Shown one piece after another: positions 28,590 to 46,283 of a DNA stretch of 54,448 nucleotides (its first letter is position 1; every line of letters starts with the position of its first letter). The notes beneath the pieces are model-generated. The model saw only the letters and a list, made by a program, of their open reading frames with translations. It was not told where the DNA came from and did not search any database. The position numbers and the translations under genes were made by a program. Source of the stretch: Desulfobacterales bacterium (lineage in GTDB: Bacteria; Desulfobacterota; Desulfobacteria; Desulfobacterales; JAHEIW01); contig JASJAN010000040.1 in NCBI GenBank assembly GCA_030066985.1, forward strand, positions 1-54,448. The letters are read 5' to 3'.

Positions 28590-29456
28590 TTATTTGCTTA
28601 AGAATTTCAGAATATGGGCGTTAATGCTCTCCGGCTGATCCAAGATCAGGAGATGACCGGCGTCTGCAATGATTTCAAATGTTAGATCGGGCATTAATCG
28701 TTGCGCGCGTTCGATAGCCTTGCGGGGATTGTATATCTTTTCGGCATCACCGATTAACAATAGAGCGGGCAGATCGATCTGCTTGAGTTCCTGATCTGTA
28801 TACACGGTCGGATATATCATGGCCGGGCGACAATAGCGCGTGACTTCCTCCATCAGATGAACAAAGGTCTCTTCCAGCACCGTTTGTTTGGCGGCCGCTG
28901 CCTTTAACATCGACCTTGCGGGGGGATGAATCCTGAACTCACCCAGAAAAAATACGAGTTTCGTTATGAAACCCAGGGGGCGGTAGGATGCCGCCGGGGC
29001 CAGCAATACGATTTTGCGCAGCCGCTGCGGAAAGGCCTGCGCCATATTCAGCGTTAACCAGCCCCCGTAGGAATGCCCCAGCAGATCTCCTCTTTCAATG
29101 TTTAACCCGTCAAACACCTCTTTTAGCCATATTGCATAATCTGCCCGCTTATCCAGTAGTCGCTCCGCCACGCTTTTGCCGGCGTCCCCGATCATATCGA
29201 CCGCGTAAACCCGATGATGGGCGCTTAACTGAGCAATGTTGGCGAACCAGACGGTTGAGCTCAAACCGGCGGCATGCAACAGCACCAGCGGATACCCATC
29301 CTCAGAACCACTGGCATTGATATGGGTAGAGCCATAGCTTGTTTTGACGTCAATGGCATCATGGGGCACTTTCCACAGCGAAAACATGGCCTCGTAGGCC
29401 GCCAGATATTGTTCGCGACCCTCCACAGTTGAAAAAATAGGTAGTTTCCTTTTCAT
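28590..29456 (-). CDS. Alpha/beta hydrolase, paralogue 1 of the cluster
   Basis: A 288-residue alpha/beta hydrolase. The nucleophile elbow is LLGHSYGGWLT, the early strand is PLVLLHAAGLSS, and the catalytic histidine lies in DAGHLLILD. The opening FSTVEGREQYLAAYEAMFSLW resembles that of the third hydrolase (30545-31438), so these two are close paralogues. No signal peptide. Last gene of the LAL-regulator block; it follows the second hydrolase by 18 bp. Confidence 0.86.
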   Translation of the reverse strand: MKRKLPIFSTVEGREQYLAAYEAMFSLWKVPHDAIDVKTSYGSTHINASGSEDGYPLVLLHAAGLSSTVWFANIAQLSAHHRVYAVDMIGDAGKSVAERLLDKRADYAIWLKEVFDGLNIERGDLLGHSYGGWLTLNMAQAFPQRLRKIVLLAPAASYRPLGFITKLVFFLGEFRIHPPARSMLKAAAAKQTVLEETFVHLMEEVTRYCRPAMIYPTVYTDQELKQIDLPALLLIGDAEKIYNPRKAIERAQRLMPDLTFEIIADAGHLLILDQPESINAHILKFLSK

Positions 29457-29474
29457 CGTCGCACCGAATCCTTT

Positions 29475-30413
29475 TCATAAATGTTTTTTTAAAAAGCCGG
29501 CAATAGCGTCTCGACATTGTTGGTGAATTCCAATTACAAAATGCCCGCCGCTTGGGAATGTGATCAGCTCGGAATCGTGTATGCGCGCATGCGCGTAGGT
29601 TGCAAAATCATAATCATTCAGGCGGTCATCCAATGCATGTAAAATCAATGTCGGAAGATTGATTCTATCAAGATCATATTGCTTGTTCGAAATCGTTGCT
29701 TTTTGATCATTTCTTATTCCCGGGTATCTTTGGCTGGCGGGATGAAATATCTGCAGCACTTCTTCTACCCATTTCTTTTCATCATGGTTTAAGGTTTTGA
29801 GAACAGCTGGATCGACCCCAAATTTTTTAATGAGAAAATTTTTAACGGTATGAGATACAGCCCAATAAATGAAATCGAACCGAAAAAGGCTATTATAAAA
29901 CCAATCCGATATGGGACGTTTTGGTGTTGTTTTACTTATGGCCGACTGGAGTACCAACGCAGCGCAGCGGTCTGGGTGGCGCAAAGTAAACAACAGCGCT
30001 GAAGGGCCCCCGATAGATAACCCAATAATGGCGGCTTTTTCAATCTGCAGATAATCCAGCAGGGCTGCATAAGCATCTGCCTGGGCTTCAAAGGATGCAT
30101 CCGGCGGTATCGGCGTTCGTAGATATCCAAAACGTGATGGACAAATCCAGAAAAAATCTTCCCCGATCAGTCGCGCAAATAAAAGGCCCATATCATGCCC
30201 GCCGCCGGCACCATGGACAAATAGCACCGGCAGACCCTCCCCGGTGGTTGAATATTCGATGCGTCCTCGCGCGGTCTCAACCACCTGGCTTTCTTCTAAA
30301 ATTCGTTTTCTAGCGGTCGATACTTCCGCTTGAAATTGTTTGATCGATAAACCATCGGCGGAAAAAACAGTTCCGCTAGCTGGCAATGGCATTAACGCTT
30401 TTTTTAGTTTCAC
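29475..30413 (-). CDS. Alpha/beta hydrolase, paralogue 2 of the cluster
   Basis: A 312-residue alpha/beta hydrolase with elbow GLSIGGPSALLF, VLFVHGAGGGHDMG for the oxyanion region, and the histidine in GGHFVIG. It is more distant from the other two. The start is GTG 30413, preceded by GGAGG five bases upstream; the listed longer frame from 30470 has no such site. It has an N-terminal helical extension before the core. Confidence 0.86.
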   Translation of the reverse strand: MKLKKALMPLPASGTVFSADGLSIKQFQAEVSTARKRILEESQVVETARGRIEYSTTGEGLPVLFVHGAGGGHDMGLLFARLIGEDFFWICPSRFGYLRTPIPPDASFEAQADAYAALLDYLQIEKAAIIGLSIGGPSALLFTLRHPDRCAALVLQSAISKTTPKRPISDWFYNSLFRFDFIYWAVSHTVKNFLIKKFGVDPAVLKTLNHDEKKWVEEVLQIFHPASQRYPGIRNDQKATISNKQYDLDRINLPTLILHALDDRLNDYDFATYAHARIHDSELITFPSGGHFVIGIHQQCRDAIAGFLKKHL

Positions 30414-30544
30414 TCTGACCTCCGTATATAAAGCCTGGTTTACCTCACGTCCGGCCGACATAAAAACCATCTTCAGCCTCTACGAGACGTGCAATTGCAT
30501 GTGGTTCTTTTTTTGGAAAAGCAGAAACGGTTGGTTATTATGTG

Positions 30545-31438
30545 TCACCGTTCTCTCAAGAACTCGAGAATTTTTTTATTCACCATTTCCGGATGCACAA
30601 ATGTGAGGTCGTGACCGGCATCGGGAATAACCTCTGTTTTTATCTGGGGTGCCATCTTATGAAGGCGCTGGATGGCTTTGCCGGCAGAATAGATTTTTTC
30701 GTGCTCACCGACCAAATAAAGTGTGGGTACGTTGATGTTCATTAGATCCGCATCGTCTAAAACCGTCGGACGAATCAACCGGATGGTTTTAAAGCACCGC
30801 ATACGCACAACTATTGCGTCCACCTCTTCTTCTAACATGATGCGGCTATCTTCATCTTTTTTCACTAAATCTTCCAGCAGCCAGAATAAAAAACGTTTGG
30901 TGAAGTAGCGATGGGGCAAAAAGCAAAGTACAGCCCGCAAGATCCACTCTAACCGTATGGGTAACACAGTGCCGGCCGGCGCCACCAACACCATTTTAGC
31001 GAGTCGCCCGGGAAAGCGGAGTGCGTACTGGCTCGTCAACCAGCCACCGTAAGACAGGCCCATAAGTTTGATATGGTTTCCCAGCCCCAGCGCACTGAAC
31101 AACTCATCAAGCCATTGCACATAGTCATCCGGGTTCTTTATGACTTGGGTGTATATACTGCGACTGTAGTCATAAATATTATCTACCGCAAAGACGCTAT
31201 ACCGTCTGGATAGCGCCTCAATGTTGGGAATCCATTGTAACGAATCGCCACCGGCGCCATGCAAGAGCACCAGTGGTGAGGCGCCGGCTGGTCCGCTCAG
31301 GCGCACAAATGTCTGGCCGTAAGCCGTATCCACGAACTGGGTCCGCGAATCGACCGGCCACTTCTTAACCCTCTCATCATATAACGCAAGATACTCTTTT
31401 TTAGCGGCCTTTGATCGAAAAGGGTGGTATGCTGTCAT
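30545..31438 (-). CDS. Alpha/beta hydrolase, paralogue 3 of the cluster
   Basis: A 297-residue alpha/beta hydrolase with LVLLHGAGGDSLQW, nucleophile elbow MGLSYGGWLTS, and the histidine in DAGHDLTFVH. The start at 31438 is supported by AGAGGA upstream. The longer reading (20 more residues) lacks one. The closest relative in the window is 28590-29456 (same FxSxxxKKEYLALYD-like opening and same GWLT after the elbow). Confidence 0.86.
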   Translation of the reverse strand: MTAYHPFRSKAAKKEYLALYDERVKKWPVDSRTQFVDTAYGQTFVRLSGPAGASPLVLLHGAGGDSLQWIPNIEALSRRYSVFAVDNIYDYSRSIYTQVIKNPDDYVQWLDELFSALGLGNHIKLMGLSYGGWLTSQYALRFPGRLAKMVLVAPAGTVLPIRLEWILRAVLCFLPHRYFTKRFLFWLLEDLVKKDEDSRIMLEEEVDAIVVRMRCFKTIRLIRPTVLDDADLMNINVPTLYLVGEHEKIYSAGKAIQRLHKMAPQIKTEVIPDAGHDLTFVHPEMVNKKILEFLRER

Positions 31439-31600
31439 TTCATATCCTCTGGTTGCGATCGAACAAATCTTAACCATGCTGAATTGTTTTCCTGACAAAA
31501 CCAGCTTACAAGCAGAAAAGTCAATATCAATCTGATACAGTTCCGTGCTTGAGTGATATCAATAACAATGAACGGCCGGGCCGACTGGCTATCCCCATTG

Positions 31601-32752
31601 TTATATCTTGGCTTCAATAATCCGCATTGTCATCTCAAATGAATCATCTTCGGGATCTTCCCAGTTGTGATTCTTATTGTAACGCTGCACGATGACGAGT
31701 TTTAAATCCGGTATAACCACCAAGACATAGTCATCCGCTCCGATATGATAGTAACCCGAATAGCCGATCATCTGCCCTAGATCCGAATCCTTTGGAATAA
31801 TCTTCCACAAATACCCATAGCCCAGACCGTCTGTATCCGGAATCGTCGAATACGCCATGGTGCTATCATCTATCCAATATTCTTGAATGATCCGCGAGCC
31901 ATTCCAACGACCATTTTTCTGGTATAGCACACCGAATTTGGCCAGGTCTCTGGGACTCATCTTGAAATGATATGCCGGATGCAAGGATTTATTCCATTGA
32001 TATTGGTAAGAACAGTTGTTGAAGTCATAATCCACCATTTCCACGCCATTGGCGATTTCCGTTTTAAAAGCCATACATATAGCTTCACCGGTCTCCTGCT
32101 CAAAAATGGTTCCCAGCGTATTAACGTCCCATTGGTTATGATAAAAGAACGAATTCGGGGCATGGCTTCCTCTATCAGGTCTATAATCGACCATCGCCGG
32201 GTCTTCATCTGCGGCTTTATGGTAAACTCCCGAGCGCGACATCAATAGATGCTCCACTCTGGCTTGTTTTTCAGCATGGGTCAGACCCGGCGGGATGTCG
32301 GCGATATGCAAATCCGCCAGGGTGGCATTAAGGTTGATATTGCCCCGGGCATCGTGAATGCCATAGATCGCATTTAAAAATACTTCTCCGATCGAATCGA
32401 CCGCATAATTTTTGTGAATATTGCCCCGGGAAAAAAAGATTTTACCGTCATGCAGTGCCATGGCGGCCTGACATCTCGTCTGAATGGCAAATTCATGTGC
32501 GTCCTGCAATTCGGCAGAAGACCAGCCTGCGTCTTCCGGTGCAATCCATTCCAGAGCCGGATCTTTTGCGGGCAGATTAACTGTGCCACCATTAACTTCA
32601 CCTTTAATTTCACTATCTGCCGAGCAGCCCATTGCAAAACCGATCAATACACAAATTATTAGGATAAGCAGTAATTTGACCGACATTAAATTGATGAAAC
32701 GTTTGATCGTAAACATTTTTAACCCCCCTGATGTTGTTTTGAATAATTTCAT
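31601..32752 (-). CDS. Beta-lactamase-fold lipoprotein with a degenerate SxxK motif
   Basis: A 383-residue serine-hydrolase-fold protein. The signal peptide has lipobox FAMGC (C43). Motif 2 (Y204-H-N206) and the C-terminal HIG are present. The first motif should be SxxK, but it reads S120-I-G-E123, with glutamate in place of the catalytic lysine. The codon is GAA, one base from AAA. This may make it a non-catalytic binder, or reflect a sequence error. Two starts are possible: 32752 (AAGGAGG) and 32716 (GGGGGG). It is part of the block with three alpha/beta hydrolases. Confidence 0.85.
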   Translation of the reverse strand: MKLFKTTSGGLKMFTIKRFINLMSVKLLLILIICVLIGFAMGCSADSEIKGEVNGGTVNLPAKDPALEWIAPEDAGWSSAELQDAHEFAIQTRCQAAMALHDGKIFFSRGNIHKNYAVDSIGEVFLNAIYGIHDARGNINLNATLADLHIADIPPGLTHAEKQARVEHLLMSRSGVYHKAADEDPAMVDYRPDRGSHAPNSFFYHNQWDVNTLGTIFEQETGEAICMAFKTEIANGVEMVDYDFNNCSYQYQWNKSLHPAYHFKMSPRDLAKFGVLYQKNGRWNGSRIIQEYWIDDSTMAYSTIPDTDGLGYGYLWKIIPKDSDLGQMIGYSGYYHIGADDYVLVVIPDLKLVIVQRYNKNHNWEDPEDDSFEMTMRIIEAKI

Positions 32753-32785: not shown

Positions 32786-33031
32786 CTATCCCTTTTCCAG
32801 TTGAACCGGTTCGATGCATTCGATCGACAGCAGCGCTATATTCAGGTCGTGTATGCGGTTTAGCAGCCCATGTAATGCGGCCTGATCCGCCACCGAACCG
32901 ATCAGAATCGTGTCGTCTGCCTCCGTGGAAATGACCATCTGCTCAAACCAATCTGACCATTTGGGGTCGAGGTGGCCTTTCAATCTGATCCGGTAATTTG
33001 TTGGGCCATGAAATTTATGTGGATTTGTCAT
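32786..33031 (-). CDS. 81-residue conserved-looking protein next to a LAL regulator
   Basis: ATG 33031 has AGGAGGAA a few bases upstream. The protein is small, soluble and charged, with a pattern NYRIRLKGHLDPKWSDWFE and later DQAALHGLLNRIHDLNIALL. I recall similar small proteins near LuxR-type regulators, but there is no named domain. It could be a small accessory subunit or a regulator of the downstream hydrolases. It is 33 bp upstream of the lipoprotein gene. Confidence 0.8.
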   Translation of the reverse strand: MTNPHKFHGPTNYRIRLKGHLDPKWSDWFEQMVISTEADDTILIGSVADQAALHGLLNRIHDLNIALLSIECIEPVQLEKG

Positions 33032-33091: not shown

Positions 33092-33182
33092 TCAGAAATT
33101 TCTGAGGTCGTCCGGTAGAAATATAGGAAATCAGAGGGGTGCGGTCATCACACTAAGGGGTGATTTTGAGGGGTGATTTTGA
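33092..33182 (-). promoter_or_regulatory. Candidate LAL/MalT-like operator and promoter of the hydrolase block
   Basis: On the plus strand, three GGGGTG hexamers in the same orientation start at 33136, 33157 and 33170; the last two sit in a perfect tandem of the 13-mer GGGGTGATTTTGA. The MalT box core is GGGGATGAGG-like. On the minus strand TATATT (33125-33120) is a good -10 with no good -35, as expected for an activator-dependent promoter. A 14-bp palindrome, TCAGAAATTTCTGA, lies at 33092-33105 in the leader. Confidence 0.5.
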
Positions 33183-33323
33183 ACCTATCTTAAAAATGTG
33201 TCTAAGCGCCCAGGGCTGCGTTGTACCGCGAATTGAAATACTCACGTACTCTGTGTACGCTCTGTTTTCAATTCACGGAAAGCCTTGCCCTGAACGCTGA
33301 TCCACTATTTTTAATATAGGTTC
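33181..33323. repeat. Palindromic element, copy A (143 bp)
   Basis: Terminal inverted repeats GAACCTATCTTAAAAAT and ATTTTTAATATAGGTTC frame nested arms GAATTGAAA / TTTTCAATTC and a tip, TACTCACGTACTCTGTGTAC. It shares the architecture with the copies at 39173 (inverted orientation) and 51252, and the ends with 46316. It starts at the last base pairs of the GGGGTGATTTTGA tandem. No gene inside. Confidence 0.85.
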
Positions 33324-33411
33324 TAAATTAGTCAGAAATGCAAATTGAAGGATCAGGTGCAGGATTGAAGATGATCTATACGCGCCGAGAGCTATATCAG
33401 GTTTTGCATAC

Positions 33412-33474
33412 TCGGTTTATGAATCGGTTTTCGCCTTGCCCTCGAACGTTATCTACAATTTTTGAGATAGTTTT
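33412..33474. repeat. Palindromic element, right half only (copy D)
   Basis: TGAATCGGTTTT is followed by CGCCTTGCCCTCGAACG and ends with TTTTTGAGATAG-TTTTTT, matching the right half of the copy at 51252. The left half is not recognisable. The rest of the 33324-33578 gap has no gene. Confidence 0.7.
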
Positions 33475-33578
33475 TTAATAGAATCAGGTTTTCATTATTT
33501 TTATGTAAGTTCAGGTTTTAAATAGGGCGGGGAAGTTGTCAGCGTGTGGGATTGATTTAAATTATTGCGCGCCGGGCG

Positions 33579-36284
33579 CTATATAAGTCCCAGCTCTTTG
33601 GCGCGGGTGACGGCTTTGATACGGCTGTTAACATCTAATTTGCTGTTGATGCTCTTGGTGTGGGTCTTTACGGTGTTTAAAGAAATGAAAAGTTTGTTTG
33701 CGATTTCGCGGTTTGATAAGCCGGCTGCAATAAGCTGTAAAACTTCCATTTCACGTTCGCTGATCGGGTCCATCAGACCTTCGATTTTCGGTGGGGTGGC
33801 TGTTTTAAAGGCTGTGAGGATTTTTTTGGCGTAGGATAAAGAAAAACCGGCCTGGCGAAGTTCATGATTCCGCTTTTTGACCGCAACCAGTTTTTCCAGC
33901 AAATCAGCTACGGGCTTTCCTTTGCTGACAAAGATCATTGTTAATCCACCGGGTTCAGCCAGCGCTAATGCGGATTGCAGCTCAGCCATTGCCGAGGCGG
34001 TTTCAGCCTTTAGTAGAAAGATCGTTAACCTGCACAACCGCATCTCGATCATCATATACACGTGATCACCGGCCTTGGCCGTTTCAATTAAACGCTGAAG
34101 CAAGTGATCCGCCTCATCCAGCCTATTTTGAGCGATCAGAATATGAGCCAAGGTCAGATATTCCAGCTGATACAGGTTGCTTATCTTATCATCAATGCTC
34201 AATCCTTTTTCCTGAGCCCAGTTTATAGCCGCATTCAGGTCGCCGGTCGCCAACCAGACAAACACCTTGAAAGCACCAAGGGGGCTGGTAATCCAGGGGG
34301 GCAGTGCAAAATTACCCGCACGCGCAGTTATTTCATCCATCAGTTTTAACGCACCGGCAATATCCATCCGATACATTAATGCTCGCACTAAACCAATCTG
34401 GCAGCTTGCCAGAATGACCGGATCGCGTCCCAGTTCACTCAGTTCGATGCCTTTGCTGATCAGACGCATGCCTTCTTCAAAATCGTTCCATTCACATAAA
34501 ATGCTGCCCAAACTTCCATACAGGGAGCCAGCAATTCCGGTTTGTTCGATGCCATTCTCTATCGCCAGATCCAGCAACTGGCGGTTAAGAGCTTCGGCCT
34601 CTTTTAATTGGCAGCGTCTAAACATGATTGATCCCAGACAACTGCCGGCGAAGATATGATAGTAGACATTGCCGGCGGTTTTGCTAATCTTCATCGCCTC
34701 GACAAAAGCCTGCTGCTGTTCGGCCAACGTGCCTGTTATATTGCCCATTCCCAATGTCGTGGCGGCCACACTTCGCCAGTTTAAATCTTCTGGGGGGAGC
34801 AGCTTCAATGCCTGCTTTGAGAAAGTGACGGCTCTCAAGAGATCACCTGTTCGCGTTAACATGTACGCGCGAATCACCGCAATCCTTCCCAACAATCCAT
34901 CCCTTTCTGAATCGCTGTCCGAAATGGACTCTATCGTTTGTTCGGCTGCTTGCAGTCTCTTTTCAGCATCATCCATGTATCCACTTTTAAACAATTCCCG
35001 GGCATAAAAGATACAAAGCTTTGGATGCGCGTCGATTTGTTCATCCGGCAGCTTTTTAAACCATCTTAAGAGTTGGCTTTCGCGGGCACGATCCCAATCG
35101 ATTTCTGCAATTTCTTCTATCAAAAGCGCTGCGCTTATATAATCTTGAGCCAAAAACGCGTGATCCACCGCTTCGTTCTTAAAACCATTTTCTGCATACC
35201 ACTGGCTTGCCCGGCGATGCAGTTCAGGGACCCGATCCTCCTGCTTCATGGGCAATCGCTGTTCGAGTAAATCACCAAACAAATGATGGTAGCGATACCA
35301 GCTGCGTTCATCGTCGAGTGGTATAACAAACAGATTGGCTTTTTCCAGGGTGTTCAATACCTGTGTGCTGTTTTCCTGATCGGTAACGGCATCGCAGAGC
35401 GGGCCGCACAGACGCCCTAAGATAGACGTTTGCAGCAGGAAATTACGGAGATGCTCGGGCTGACGGCTCAGCACCTCTTCGGTGAGATAGTCGGCAATAT
35501 AGCGATTGTCGCCTTTAAAGCCTTTGATGAAATCGGATGGATCCTTGCGTCCTTGCAGCGACAGAGCAGCCAGCTGCAGACCAGCAGCCCATCCTTCGGT
35601 GCGGGTTTCCAGCAATTGGATATCCGGGGCGGAAAGCTGTACATTTAAACTTTGATTCAAAAGGCTGGCGGTTTCATCGACAGTGAAACTCAGATCAACG
35701 GCACGCAGCTCGGTCAGCAGGTTTTGACCACGCACCCGCGCCAGTGGCAAAGGTGGGTCCGATCGGGTGGCGATGATCAGATGCATCTGCTCGGGCAGGT
35801 TTTCGAGCAAAAACGCAATTAAATCATGAATTGGTTTGGCGTCGACCAGATGATAATCATCCAGAACCAGCGCAAGGTCTAGCGAAATTTGGCTTAAATC
35901 ATTGAGCAGACTTATCAAAATGGATTCGATCGGCGGTGGCTGCGGTGAGTTGATCATCGTCAGGGCCGCCTTGCCGGCAGCGGCCTCCAGGCTCTGAAGC
36001 CCAAGGATGACATAGGTCAGAAAATGCAAGGGTTCATTATCAGCTTTGTCCACTGAGAACCATGCGGCCGGTATTTTGTGGGAGTGGATCCAGTCGACCA
36101 AGAGGGTGGTTTTGCCGAAACCGGCTGGAGCAGATATGAGGGCAAGCTTACGTTCAAACCCCTCATCCATCCGCTTGACCAGGCGCGGTCGCGAAATCCA
36201 GTTTGGCCTCAGTGGAGGAACGCACAGTTTTGTTCGTAACGGCGTCAGTTGACTGTTACCAGTAAATTCAGGCTTCATCCGCAA
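33579..36284 (-). CDS. LAL-type (MalT-like) LuxR-family transcriptional activator
   Basis: A 901-residue large ATP-binding LuxR regulator. Walker A is APAGFGKTT (53-60) and Walker B is VLDDYH. A long helical/TPR-like middle follows. The C-terminal LuxR helix-turn-helix reads SEREMEVLQLIAAGLSNREI to SLNTVKTHTKSINSKL. It is related to MalT, which senses an effector through the central region and activates transcription with ATP. The TTG at 36284 has AGGAG upstream; ATG 36278 is the alternative. The gene block that follows it on the same strand is a likely target. Confidence 0.9.
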   Translation of the reverse strand: MRMKPEFTGNSQLTPLRTKLCVPPLRPNWISRPRLVKRMDEGFERKLALISAPAGFGKTTLLVDWIHSHKIPAAWFSVDKADNEPLHFLTYVILGLQSLEAAAGKAALTMINSPQPPPIESILISLLNDLSQISLDLALVLDDYHLVDAKPIHDLIAFLLENLPEQMHLIIATRSDPPLPLARVRGQNLLTELRAVDLSFTVDETASLLNQSLNVQLSAPDIQLLETRTEGWAAGLQLAALSLQGRKDPSDFIKGFKGDNRYIADYLTEEVLSRQPEHLRNFLLQTSILGRLCGPLCDAVTDQENSTQVLNTLEKANLFVIPLDDERSWYRYHHLFGDLLEQRLPMKQEDRVPELHRRASQWYAENGFKNEAVDHAFLAQDYISAALLIEEIAEIDWDRARESQLLRWFKKLPDEQIDAHPKLCIFYARELFKSGYMDDAEKRLQAAEQTIESISDSDSERDGLLGRIAVIRAYMLTRTGDLLRAVTFSKQALKLLPPEDLNWRSVAATTLGMGNITGTLAEQQQAFVEAMKISKTAGNVYYHIFAGSCLGSIMFRRCQLKEAEALNRQLLDLAIENGIEQTGIAGSLYGSLGSILCEWNDFEEGMRLISKGIELSELGRDPVILASCQIGLVRALMYRMDIAGALKLMDEITARAGNFALPPWITSPLGAFKVFVWLATGDLNAAINWAQEKGLSIDDKISNLYQLEYLTLAHILIAQNRLDEADHLLQRLIETAKAGDHVYMMIEMRLCRLTIFLLKAETASAMAELQSALALAEPGGLTMIFVSKGKPVADLLEKLVAVKKRNHELRQAGFSLSYAKKILTAFKTATPPKIEGLMDPISEREMEVLQLIAAGLSNREIANKLFISLNTVKTHTKSINSKLDVNSRIKAVTRAKELGLI

Positions 36285-40907: not shown

Positions 40908-43900
40908 CTACTTTACCTTTGAACCTTTGAACCTCTGAACCTCTGAACCCTGAACCTCTGAACCGTTGAGATACCGCTGAAAGCACCTGGCAGTATGAGA
41001 TTTAGCACTAAATTTGAGAAGCTCCGCCGGTGATCCGGTGGCCACCACACGGCCGCCTTGATCGCCGCCTTCCGGGCCCAGGTCAATAATGTGGTCAGCT
41101 TCTTTGATGATTTCCATGTTGTGCTCAATAATGGCCACGGTGTTGCCCTCATCTACCAGGGCTTGCAACACGTTGATCAGCCGCATAATATCGGCCAGGT
41201 GCAACCCGGTGGTCGGCTCATCCAATATATAGAACGTGTGTCCATTTGAGCGCTTAACCAGTTGCTTGGCCAGTTTGATGCGCTGGGCCTCACCGCCGGA
41301 TAGGGTCGGGCTGGGTTGTCCCAGGCACAGATAGCCGAGTCCGACGTCACAAACAAACTGCACGGCGCGGCGGATGTTGGGGACGGCCGAGAAAAAACGT
41401 ACCGCTTCGGCAAAGGTCATTTCCAAGACATCAGCCATGCTTTTGCCTTTGTACTGGATAGCCAGGGTCTCCTTATTATACCGCTTGCCGCGGCAGATCT
41501 CGCAGGGTACATACACATCCGGCAGAAAACTCATTTTCACTTTAGGTCGCCCCTGTCCTTTGCAGGCATCACAGCGGCCTTCGGCCACATTAAATGAAAA
41601 GCGGCCGGGTTTATAGCCTCTGGCCCTGGCCGTCGGTGTCAATGAAAACAATTTTCGAATTTCGCTTAAAAAACCGACATAGGATGCGGGCACCGATCGC
41701 GGCGTGCGCCCGATGGGGCTGTGATCAACTTCTAATACCCGCTGAATCTGCTGCCAACCTTTAATGTCCTTGCATTGGCCGGCCGGATAATTTTTCTTCT
41801 GCAGGCGGTTGCGCAGACCCTTATACAGCGTTTCTTTAAGCAAAGAGGATTTGCCCGAACCTGAGACACCGGTGATGCAAACCAGGCGGCCAAGAGGAAA
41901 ACGCGCGCTGATATTTTTGAGGTTGTTGGTCTTGGCCCCCTGAACAAACAGTTTTTTGGCCGAGCGGTAGGGTCTGAGCCGGGATGAAATTTTCTTGGCA
42001 TGCCCGTCAATCAGAGCACCGGTAATCGACGATTTGACTTTCTTTAAATGATGGAGCCCACCGGAGGCTACCACCTTGCCGCCGTCCTGACCGGCACCCG
42101 GACCTAAATCGATAATGGTATCCGCTGCGCGAATGGTTTCCTCGTCATGCTCAACTACCAGAATGCTGTTGCCGCGGTCCCGCAGGGTCTTGAGGGCATC
42201 GATCAGGATCCCGTTATCACGGGCATGCAGCCCGATGGTGGGTTCATCCAGGATGTAGCAGACACCGGTCAGATTTGAGCCCAACTGGGCGGCCAGGCGC
42301 ACCCGCTGGGCCTCGCCGCCAGACAAGGTGTCGCCGCTGCGCGACAGTGACAGATAGGATAGGCCCAGCTGGTTGAGCAAAGACAGTCGCGTCAGAATTT
42401 CGTTGACCACCGGTTCGGCGATGGGTTTTTGCGCTGCAGGAAATTTTAATTTTTTGATGGCGTTAAATGTGTCCTGCGCCGGTTTGCGTACCAGGTCCCA
42501 GATGGAATGACCGCCGACTTTAACCGCCCGGGTCTGGGGCTTGAGACGGCTGCCTGCGCAGCTCACACAGACTGTGGTGGCAATCGGAACGTCGTCATCG
42601 TCGATTTCCAGGATGCCGGTTACCCCCAGCCCGCCGCAATCGGGGCAGGCGCCCTGCTTGCTATTAAAGGAAAACAATCGCGGGTCAAGGGGTTCCAGGC
42701 TGATACCGCAAGTCGGGCAGGTGCCTGAGAGGCTATAAATTTCTTCATGACCCCCCCGGCCGACAAGCGTGAGGCTGCCGTTGCCGATTTTCAAGGCTTT
42801 GTCCACCAGTGGCGCCAGATTCTTAGACGGCAGGCGCCCGACCACCAATTCAATCGTGTGTTCGTGATAGCGGCTCAAGGCCATACCTTCTTTGAGGGGC
42901 GTCATGCGGCCATCGATGCGGGCCTTTTTGAATCCTTTTTTCAGTGCACGGGCCAGCACGTCTTTATGAAAACCCTTGCGCCCGAAAACCTGGGTGGCCA
43001 GCATTGTTGCCCGCTTTCGGGCATAACGTTGACGGAGTTGCTTGACGATGGCAGCCTGGCTTTGGGCTGTTAGCTGTCGGTCGCATCCCGGGCAGTGCTG
43101 ATGGCCAAGTTTGCTGAATAACAGCCTGAGAAAATGGTAAATTTCAGTCAAGGTGGCTACCGTTGAGCGGCGGCTCGAATGACTGATGCGCTGCTCGATG
43201 GCCACGGTCGGTGCCAGACCGGTGACCAGGTCCACATCCGGGCGTTCCAATATTTTCATATACTGGCGAACGTAGGGGGCGAGGCTTTCCAGGTAGCGGC
43301 GCTGCCCTTCGGCAAACAGAATGTCAAAGGCCAGAGTGGATTTGCCCGAACCCGAAACCCCGCTGAGCACCACCAGTTCGTTCTGGGGAACGGTCAGGCT
43401 GATGTTTTTCAAATTGTGCTCGCGGGCGCCTTTTAAGGATATACGCTTCGGCGTTGCTGAAGCGCCGAAAGCGGCCATCGGATCGGCAACCTCAGCCGGT
43501 CGGCCGGATGTCGGTCGTTTCAGACGGCCTTTTCCTTCCAAATAGGCTTTTAGGAACCGTCCGGTATGTGAATTGCCGTTTTGGGCGATTTTTTGAGGCG
43601 TTCCGCTGGCCACCAGTTGGCCGCCGTCATCTCCGCCTTCGGGCCCCAAATCAATAACCCAGTCTGCGGTTTTAACCACATCCATGTTGTGCTCGATGAC
43701 CAAAACCGTATTGCCGTCATCCACCAGGCGCTGCAGGGATGCGAGCAATTTGCCGATGTCATCAAAATGCAGACCGGTGGTAGGCTCATCGAAAATAAAC
43801 AGGCGCTGGCCTGCCCTTTTACCGTTGGACTTTAAATGGCGCGACAATTTCAGGCGTTGGGCCTCACCACCGGAGAGGGTGTTGATCGGCTGACCCAGGC

Positions 43901-46283
43901 GCAGATAGCTCAAACCAACACCGGCCAGCGGTTGCAGAGCGGTCACAATTTTGGACTGATCAATAAAAAAATCCAGGGCCTGGCTGACGGTTAGATTGAG
44001 AATATCGTTGATGTTTTTTCCCTGATAGGTGATCTGCAATATGGCTTCTGTAAAACGGCGCCCCTTACAATCAGGGCAGGTAATGAACACATCCGACAGA
44101 AACTGCATTTCAACCTTTTCGAAACCATCGCCTTTGCAGGTTTCACACCTTCCGCCGTCGACGTTAAAGGAAAAATAGCCCGGCCCAAAATTTTTGGCGC
44201 GGGCGTCTTCGGTGGCGGCCAGCAGTTTGCGGATGGGGTCAAGGGCTTTGGTGTAGGTCAGCGCATTGGCACGCGGTGTGCGCCCGATGGCGCGCTGATC
44301 GATCAACACCACATCGTCGATGTGGTTTATACCAGTGAGCTTCTGGTGGCGACCGGGGCGGTCCTGGGGATCGCCCAGTGCACGTTTGACGGCTTTGTAA
44401 AGGATTTCCTCTGCTAGGGTTGATTTGCCGGAACCGGATACGCCCGTCAGACAGACGAACATTCCCAGCGGAATCCGCACATCGATGTTTTTTAAATTAT
44501 TTTCAGCGGCTTTTTTGATGGTGATCCAGCGGTTTTTATCGGGGCGCCGGGTTTGCCTGCTATGCTCAATGCGGCGTTTGCCTTTCAGGTACTGGCCGGT
44601 CAGCGAGCCGTTGACATTGGCCGTGGGGCCAAAATACATTACCTCGCCGCCCTTTTCGCCGGCCCGGGGCCCCAGGTCCAGCAGAAAATCGCTTTCGCGG
44701 ATAATTTCCGGATCATGCTCGACGACCACGACGGTATTGGACAGGTTTCGCAATCCCTTCAAAATGCGAATCAGCCGATGGTTATCGCGGGGATGCAAAC
44801 CGATACTGGGCTCATCGAGAACATACAGGGTATTGACCAATGAGGATCCCAGGGCGGACGCCAATGCCACCCGTTGGACTTCGCCGCCGGAAAGGGTGCG
44901 GGATTGGCGGTCCAGGGTCAGATACCCCAGGCCGACATCTTTAAGATAGGTCAGACGGCTGCGAACTTCATCGCGAACCAGCAGGCCGGCCTCATCCCGT
45001 TCGGGCAGTCTCAGGCGATTGAAAAAATCAAGGGCTTGGAGCACATTTTTTTGGTAAACTTGGGCGATGGTGCGATCGGCCAATCGGTAAAGCAGGGTTT
45101 CATCTTTGAAGCGCGCGCCGTCGCAATCCGGGCAGATATCATAGCTGCGGTAGCGCGACAGAAATACGCGTACGGGCATCTTGTAGGTTTTTCTCTCCAG
45201 CCAGCGAAACAGGCCTTTGACGCCGTAATAGTTAGATGTGCCTTCGATGATCGCTTTTTTGTCGGCCGCCTTTAGCCGTTTAAATGGAACTCGGGTGGAA
45301 ATCCTGCGGCGCCGGCAAAAATCCATCAGATCATCGTACTCCATACGCCCGTCTTTTTCTGACCCAAAGGGCTTGATAGCGCCGTCTGCCAGTGAGCGGG
45401 AGGGATCCGGGATAATCAGATCCATATCAATGCCGATGGTGCGGCCGAATCCTCGACAGGTATCGCAGGCACCCAGCGGGCTGTTGAATGAGAACAGATT
45501 GGGCAGCGGCGGGTTGTAGGTGATATGGCATTTAGCGCATTGCAGCTGGTTGCTGAAGGCTTTGTGGCCGTGGGGTGGAACCCAGATATCCAGCTGTCCG
45601 CCGCCGAAACGATAGGCCAGCTCGAGGGAATCTAGGATGCGCTCACGGTCTTTGTCCCGCAGGATGACGCGGTCGACCAATACCGGAATCCGCTTTTGAT
45701 CTTTTGCCGGCTGCCATTCGTCCAGGTGAACAATGCGGTTTTCGAGGTAAAGGCGGTCAAAACCCATCTGCATCAGATAGCGCCGCACTTCATCGAAGGG
45801 TGATCCCTCCAGTTGATAAGGAAAGGTGATCACCACCTGGGCACCGGGCGGCTGGCTTATTAAGAAATTCCATACATGCGCCGGTGTTTCGGGCTTTACC
45901 GGCTGTCCGCACATCTGGCAATGAAGCTCCCCGAGTCGGGCGTACAGCAATTTGACGTAATCGGTGATTTCGGTCATGGTGCCGACCGTTGATCGCGAGG
46001 TTCGCACGGGGTCTTTGCGGTCGATGGCGATGGCCGGCGGAATCCCTTCGATTTTGTCCACCTGCGGCCGATCCATGCGATCCATAAACTGGCGTGCATA
46101 GGGTGAAAACGTTTCCACGTAGCGGCGCTGTCCTTCAGCATAGAGGGTATCAAAAGCCAGCGACGACTTGCCGGAACCGCTAACGCCGGTGACGACCGTA
46201 ATCCGGTTCAGAGGGATGTCGATATCCAGGTTTTTGAGATTGTGCTGGCGGGCGCCTTTGACGCTAATGGATTGCGTTTTCAT
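40908..46283 (-). CDS. Double-length UvrA (two fused UvrA copies, four ABC modules)
   Basis: A 1791-residue protein made of two UvrA-like halves joined near residue 945. Walker A motifs GVSGSGKS occur near residues 33, 614, 974 and about 1475, each with an LSGGE signature. Zinc-finger cysteine sets (CAKC/CDTC, CETC/CPDC, CPTC/CPDC, CDAC/CEIC) are present in both halves. Both halves keep the region that binds UvrB in ordinary UvrA. UvrA is the DNA-damage recognition ATPase of nucleotide excision repair. The final residues [19 protein letters not shown] are encoded by the GGTTCAGA word repeat and are probably not native. Confidence 0.92.
40915..40966. repeat. Direct array of the GAACCTCTGAACC word repeat
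   Basis: Seven or so units of TTTGAACC/TCTGAACC in tandem (CCTTTGAACC, CTCTGAACC, etc.). On the reverse strand it is read as codons of the UvrA C-terminus, so the gene's own stop was apparently replaced by the array. Confidence 0.85.

Follow-up and report, generated by a model that had tools for sequence, protein, structure and literature searches.

Introduction

In front of a gene for an 81-residue protein (p81), on the minus strand of the 54,448-nucleotide stretch of Desulfobacterales DNA analysed here (the window), short G-rich hexamers are clustered in and beside an exact tandem, and the question raised by this locus is whether they form an operator, of what kind and for which regulator. 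In our judgement 33120-33176 is probably a MalT-type activator-dependent promoter, at which the LAL regulator encoded just upstream would bind the boxes and thereby activate p81 together with the hydrolase genes. For most LAL regulators, to our knowledge, neither sites nor targets nor ligands are known; an operator that recurs before an unnamed small gene, itself recurrent, offers a route to predicting sites of the LAL class from sequence. Neither this operator nor p81 turned up in a search of the literature.

The Probable Operator Region

On the plus strand GGGGTG starts at 33136, 33157 and 33170, and 33157-33182 is an exact tandem of the 13-bp unit GGGGTGATTTTGA; these three same-orientation hexamers and the tandem, noted in an earlier sequence-only reading, are indeed found at these places. 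Since p81 lies on the minus strand, the boxes read TCACCCC towards it, and the order on that strand is TCACCCC, a second TCACCCC 13 bp on, the inverted half-site GTGTGATGA (33153-33145) and TATATT (33125 to 33120). The features of the locus are as follows.

33170..33176, minus strand: direct box 1, TCACCCC; in the exact 13-bp tandem; kept in the orthologous block L104
33157..33163, minus strand: direct box 2, TCACCCC, 13 bp from box 1; the de novo motif falls here; counterpart in L104 TCACACC
33145..33153, minus strand: inverted promoter-proximal half-site GTGTGATGA; within the de novo motif; kept in L104; covaries with direct box 2 across loci
33143..33148, minus strand: weak -35-like hexamer ATGACC (4/6), overlapping the inverted half-site
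33120..33125, minus strand: probable -10, TATATT, with the predicted start at about 33113; same distance in L104; 22 nt behind GTGTGA
33136..33141, minus strand: third box of the earlier reading, probably outside the operator; without conservation in L104; two mismatches from the MalT core
32786..33031, minus strand: p81, first gene behind the operator, of an unnamed family, without significant Pfam or NCBIfam family
33579..36284, minus strand: LAL (MalT-like) regulator, presumed binder; TPR_MalT and GerE; matches to MalT structures and sequence
31601..32752, minus strand: beta-lactamase-fold protein, presumed to be in the same operon; also the second gene behind the LAL gene in L104
30545-31498, 29475-30470 and 28590-29456, minus strand: three alpha/beta hydrolase genes, presumed to be in the same operon

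The core hexamer of MalT sites is given as GGA(T/G)GA, within the consensus GGGGA(T/G)GAGG, in the part of the literature report drawn on here (PMC7567727). The GGGTGA of the copies at 33157 and 33170 is one mismatch away from GGATGA, and the inverted half, TGATGA, differs from it at one of six positions; the copy at 33136 has two mismatches. Of the box set of the sequence-only reading, the two direct boxes are supported as MalT-like; the inverted half-site at 33145-33153 had been overlooked. Counted from the predicted start, this half-site ends at -35 to -32, the place in which one would look for a MalT box, while the 33136 box would lie at about -23 to -28. The promoter had also been described as lacking a good -35; a weak one is present, ATGACC standing 17 nt from TATATT, so that the element is poor rather than absent. 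A promoter scan of the spacer returned six promoter-like sites against 0.9 in shuffles and does not, with so many, single out the pair ATGACC/TATATT; a scan of the window against Rfam gave nothing at gathering scores.

The Regulator and Its Neighbours

The presumed binder is a protein of 901 residues, encoded upstream of p81 on the same strand, with TPR_MalT and GerE domains. It matches the MalT structures 8bob over residues 18-422 (1e-57) and 1hz4 over 460-803 (2e-11), and E. coli MalT over its full length (27.2% identity, 3e-86); with an N-terminal NTPase region, a MalT-type TPR region and a C-terminal LuxR HTH it qualifies as a LAL, or MalT-like STAND, regulator. No maltose or maltodextrin gene was recognised among the seven neighbouring proteins scanned, which are hydrolases, the beta-lactamase-fold protein and an amine oxidase; this is not the content of a maltose regulon.

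According to the mechanism proposed, the LAL protein would become active through a ligand and would then bind the two direct TCACCC boxes 13 bp apart as well as the inverted half-site GTGTGATGA, which overlaps the weak -35; thus bound, it would recruit RNA polymerase to TATATT and turn on transcription of p81 and of the hydrolase genes that follow.

Two further observations concern the gene content of the window. The stretch 28590-32752, behind the MalT-like regulator, encodes a beta-lactamase-fold protein and, one after another, three alpha/beta hydrolases; in E. coli, Aes, an alpha/beta hydrolase, inhibits MalT. Elsewhere, at 40908-46283, an open frame of 1791 residues looks, judged by eye from its translation, like two UvrA-type ATPases fused head to tail, and ends in a repetitive tail.

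Recurrence before p81 Homologues

Of the 52 p81 hits (51 loci), 27 are preceded on their own strand by a LAL-type HTH gene that ends no more than 600 nt away, a count to be read with the provisos that two hits are pieces in one locus and that part of the non-LAL remainder is cut by contig ends. Although a scan of the spacers by structure only was significant in the aggregate (12/52 at a score of at least 11, shuffle mean 2.55), its best places lay off the later motif in many loci, and a motif search was used instead.

For this search the 51 spacers were reduced to 32 by removing related ones, leaving 18 that are LAL-linked and 14 that are not. On the coding strand of the 32 spacers the de novo motif reached a log-likelihood ratio of 172, compared with 82-93 in eight shuffled sets; its consensus, cattTtTccccCTTTtgGG.Ggtt, combines a direct box with an inverted one behind it, and the motif falls on the window's site. 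When each spacer was scored with a motif trained without it, 12/18 LAL-linked and 7/14 unlinked spacers reached p < 0.05 by shuffles, the other 6/18 and 7/14 being not significant; judged against 73 control upstream regions, 12 LAL-linked and five unlinked spacers did so. With p = 0.095 in the shuffle test and 0.082 against the 73 controls, the site in the window is marginal, which we think is due to its 13-bp period and its loop, both different from the commoner, 11-bp and T-rich form. The pattern TCACMCCN{3,8}TCACMCC has one other occurrence in the genome, at C16:101982.

The half-sites covary. Once the three spacers with the lowest scores (L038, L076 and L080) are set aside from the 32, the two direct boxes of the remaining 29 agree at 4.00 of six positions within loci and at 2.91 between loci, and direct and inverted boxes at 3.79 and 3.22, respectively, neither difference being reached in 5000 permutations; when the test is restricted to the 25 or the 17 top-scoring sites, it still gives 0/5000 for the direct pair, and five and 13 of 5000, respectively, for the direct-to-inverted comparison. 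Of 19 good sites, 10 have a -10-like hexamer at a distance of 20-24 nt behind the inverted box and nine have none in that interval; the shuffle mean is 1.76, the largest value in 2000 runs is seven, and none reaches 10. The window is outside these 19 sites, and its TATATT lies 22 nt behind GTGTGA.

The same operator is often carried by p81 genes without a LAL neighbour, which points to p81 as a core target. It also speaks for the strongest of the alternatives, that the operator is real but bound by a different regulator, the LAL gene being merely a neighbour: half of the unlinked spacers have the motif, and regulators with a LuxR-type HTH are common. A LAL protein encoded elsewhere in these genomes could, though, act on them, and the presence of a LAL gene upstream in 27/52 hits, the agreement of the layout and the 13-bp period with E. 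coli malP, and the correlation of a box 1 base with a residue of the LAL recognition helix (see below) all speak against another binder, which we regard as unlikely.

Recognition Helix and Box Letters

The residue at x in the helix sequence T-V-K-x-H contacts DNA in related HTH proteins. Of 27 LAL loci, 16 were retained for comparison (direct pair of at least 4/6, at least 150 LAL residues). Among these, box 1 has C as its second base in 10/10 loci with T or S at x and in 0/5 with K or R; the remaining locus has W at x and a box 1 with C. The relation is weaker for box 2, with C in 10/10 (T/S) and 2/5 (K/R). Outside these 16, inspection by eye found C present where x is S, A or T in L041, L058, L094 and L112, C absent where x is K or R in L063, L040, L098 and L113, G with A in L032 and L085, and W with A in L115; L096 and L066 are ambiguous, and L039, the L100-type loci and L116 are uninformative or without a clear box. 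E. coli MalT (TIKTH, TC boxes) agrees with the rule.

Relatedness confounds this correlation: box similarity correlates both with that of the HTH (r 0.34, p 0.015) and with that of the TPR region (r 0.29, p 0.015). Once the TPR region is taken into account, the correlation of boxes with the HTH has p = 0.066. The rule as proposed reduces to one residue and one base.

The Orthologous Block and the Hairpin Repeat

The block L104 has the same gene order as the window, with identities of 65% for LAL (513 aligned residues, only part of the gene being on the contig), 68% for p81, 65% for the beta-lactamase-fold protein and 76% for the first hydrolase. Being the only orthologous block found, it makes conservation at this locus a matter of a single comparison. 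The two spacers share one strong alignable stretch (63/82 positions, E 7e-14) and a second, weak one (19/22, E 0.005). Within the strong one lie both direct boxes, box 2 in the form TCACACC, together with GTGTGATGAC and TTTCCTATATTTC, and the spacing is unchanged throughout. The conservation in a relative that the sequence-only reading had itself called for is thus found for the direct boxes, and its assignment of TATATT as -10 gains from the unchanged distance; the GGGGTG of 33136 is not kept, and this box probably falls outside the operator.

Between the two aligned stretches the window has about 314 bp extra, the site of hairpin elements, which we infer were inserted upstream while the promoter was left intact. 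The boxes are separated there from the LAL gene by an imperfect hairpin of about 155 bp, whose folding z as DNA is -7.2. It belongs to a dispersed repeat for which 20 matches, counting the copy in the window, are listed in the genome: in the window it occupies 33176-33330, with a partial copy at 33433-33480, and further copies are L002-L020. A consensus fold from 17 of the 20 listed copies (L011, L017 and L019 being left out as partial) has 29 pairs, 19 of them with pair-keeping double changes; 102 double-changed cells stand against one single-sided change, and the near absence of G-U steps suggests that the symmetry is kept at the DNA level.

Insertions can give rise to tandem duplications, and the tandem adjoins the repeat, whose outer arm (from 33176) overlaps its last bases, so that the tandem might be a functionless by-product of the insertion. 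The repeat was nevertheless rejected as its source, and the explanation is a very improbable one: L104, without the repeat and the roughly 314 bp of insertion, has both boxes at the same spacing, and the exact 13-mer has no further copy in the 5.07-Mb assembly in spite of the 20 repeat matches listed. The rest of the window yielded no second exact tandem whose unit measures 11-14 bp.

Terminator and Chance

Box 2 and the inverted half could also be the stem of a terminator or attenuator behind the LAL gene, an inverted repeat behind a stop codon being what such an element would look like, and a run of four T does occur within 12 nt behind it in 5 of 20 sites examined. The run is missing from the other 15, however, a scan of the window's spacer found no terminator-like site on the minus strand, the unlinked p81 spacers carry the inverted repeat too, an additional direct copy covaries with the stem, and a -10-like hexamer follows at a set distance; we give this explanation even less credit than that of an insertion by-product.

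That G-rich hexamers have clustered by chance is the least credible reading of all: GGGGTG does occur in the window at chance frequency (28 against 27.75 expected, so that it is not rare and its frequency alone is uninformative) and the window's leave-one-out score is marginal, but a triple of like-oriented copies spanning no more than 40 bp is found a single time in the window and in 0/400 dinucleotide shuffles, two identical hexamers 11-13 bp apart with an inverted copy (at least 5/6), as present in the 250 nt before p81, appear in 0.32% of 5000 shuffles of those 250 nt, and the boxes are conserved in L104.

The p81 Family and Its Spread

The p81 of the window has no match in Pfam or NCBIfam, and 11 aligned members gave one weak match in each library (BON_like, 0.014; ArfA_OmpATb_N, 0.033) and one among PDB sequences (E 0.19). 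A model from the single sequence (mean pLDDT 69.7) has the order beta-alpha-beta-beta-alpha-beta; its best Foldseek matches are Lrp/AsnC chains (E 0.11), with none at E 0.001 or better.

The distribution of the family is patchy. Its profile found p81 in 31/389 genomes of the class sample and 4/395 of the phylum sample, the window's genome being counted in both, and in 5/86 and 3/30 in two families searched. It also occurs on eight plasmid records, from Cyanobacteriota, Chloroflexota, Deinococcota and Actinomycetota, three of which (Chlorohelix and two Deinococcus) have a LAL gene directly upstream; no relative was confirmed in viral contigs. The motif matrix fits the spacer of one Deinococcus plasmid, L115 (12.5 bits); by eye, two direct boxes and one inverted box are seen in Acaryochloris (L112) and Chlorohelix (L113), both of which score low, at most an inverted TCACC/GGGTGA pair in L117-L119, and nothing clear in L114 and L116. 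Searches for fresh loci bearing on the helix rule added two p81 genes, L122 and L123, for which the listed frames are without a LuxR-type HTH end.

The genes behind p81 differ among the loci examined: L104 has hydrolases followed by HlyD and AcrB types, L105 has ABC and MacB types, L108 DUF3786, L109 an epimerase, L110 a dehydrogenase and Chlorohelix MMPL. The cargo attached to the control part seems to vary. It is conceivable, and put forward here only tentatively, that LAL and p81 form a horizontally spread control cassette, in which a MalT-like STAND regulator, an operator of two direct boxes and one inverted box, and a dedicated, possibly ferredoxin-like p81 feeding back on the regulator stand before hydrolases, efflux parts or dehydrogenases, with box letters that follow the helix rule (T/S with TC, K/R with TA).

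Comparison with Known MalT and LAL Systems

The operator is probably of the known MalT kind; its recurrent target is an unnamed small protein family. MalT sites reportedly stand in direct repeat (a description ascribed to Vidal-Ingigliardi, 1991), and the window's two direct boxes are arranged in this manner, with the 13-bp period and the orientation towards the gene that E. coli malP and malK show, an arrangement kept in L104. Upstream of malP in E. coli K-12, TCATCC and TCCTCC, 13 bp apart, are followed by TAATCC and an inverted GGATGA; malK has an identical 13-bp pair. Like malP, the window has its inverted box on the promoter side, and its LAL protein has the length and domain order of E. 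coli MalT. The window differs in that its boxes read TCACCC instead of TCATCC/TCCTCC, in that malP has the further TAATCC box, and in the distance from the inverted box to the -10-like hexamer, which is 22 nt here and 31 nt in malP, where GATAAC, as read from the sequence, falls outside the 20-24 nt interval. Unlike the E. coli mal system, the window has no maltose genes recognised among its seven scanned neighbours.

SCO6993 of Streptomyces coelicolor is, like the window's regulator, a LAL protein, for which footprinted sites are described in promoters, its own included; unlike the window's boxes these sites are, in the part of that report considered here, short inverted repeats without a derived consensus, and SCO6993 is reported there as a negative regulator of antibiotic production, whereas the window's LAL protein is proposed to be an activator (PMC9628970). 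A parallel in position is offered by the MalT site of Actinoplanes sp. SE50/110, TCATCC-5 nt-GGATGA, which overlaps the -35 and has its 3' end 34.4 nt from the start (PMC7567727); the window's TCACCC-4 nt-GTGTGA likewise overlaps a weak -35 and ends at about -35 from the predicted start. In the portion of the Actinoplanes report used here the inverted pair alone is described, to which the window adds a second direct box ahead, and common to both, as far as that portion goes, are target genes outside maltose metabolism (PMC7567727).
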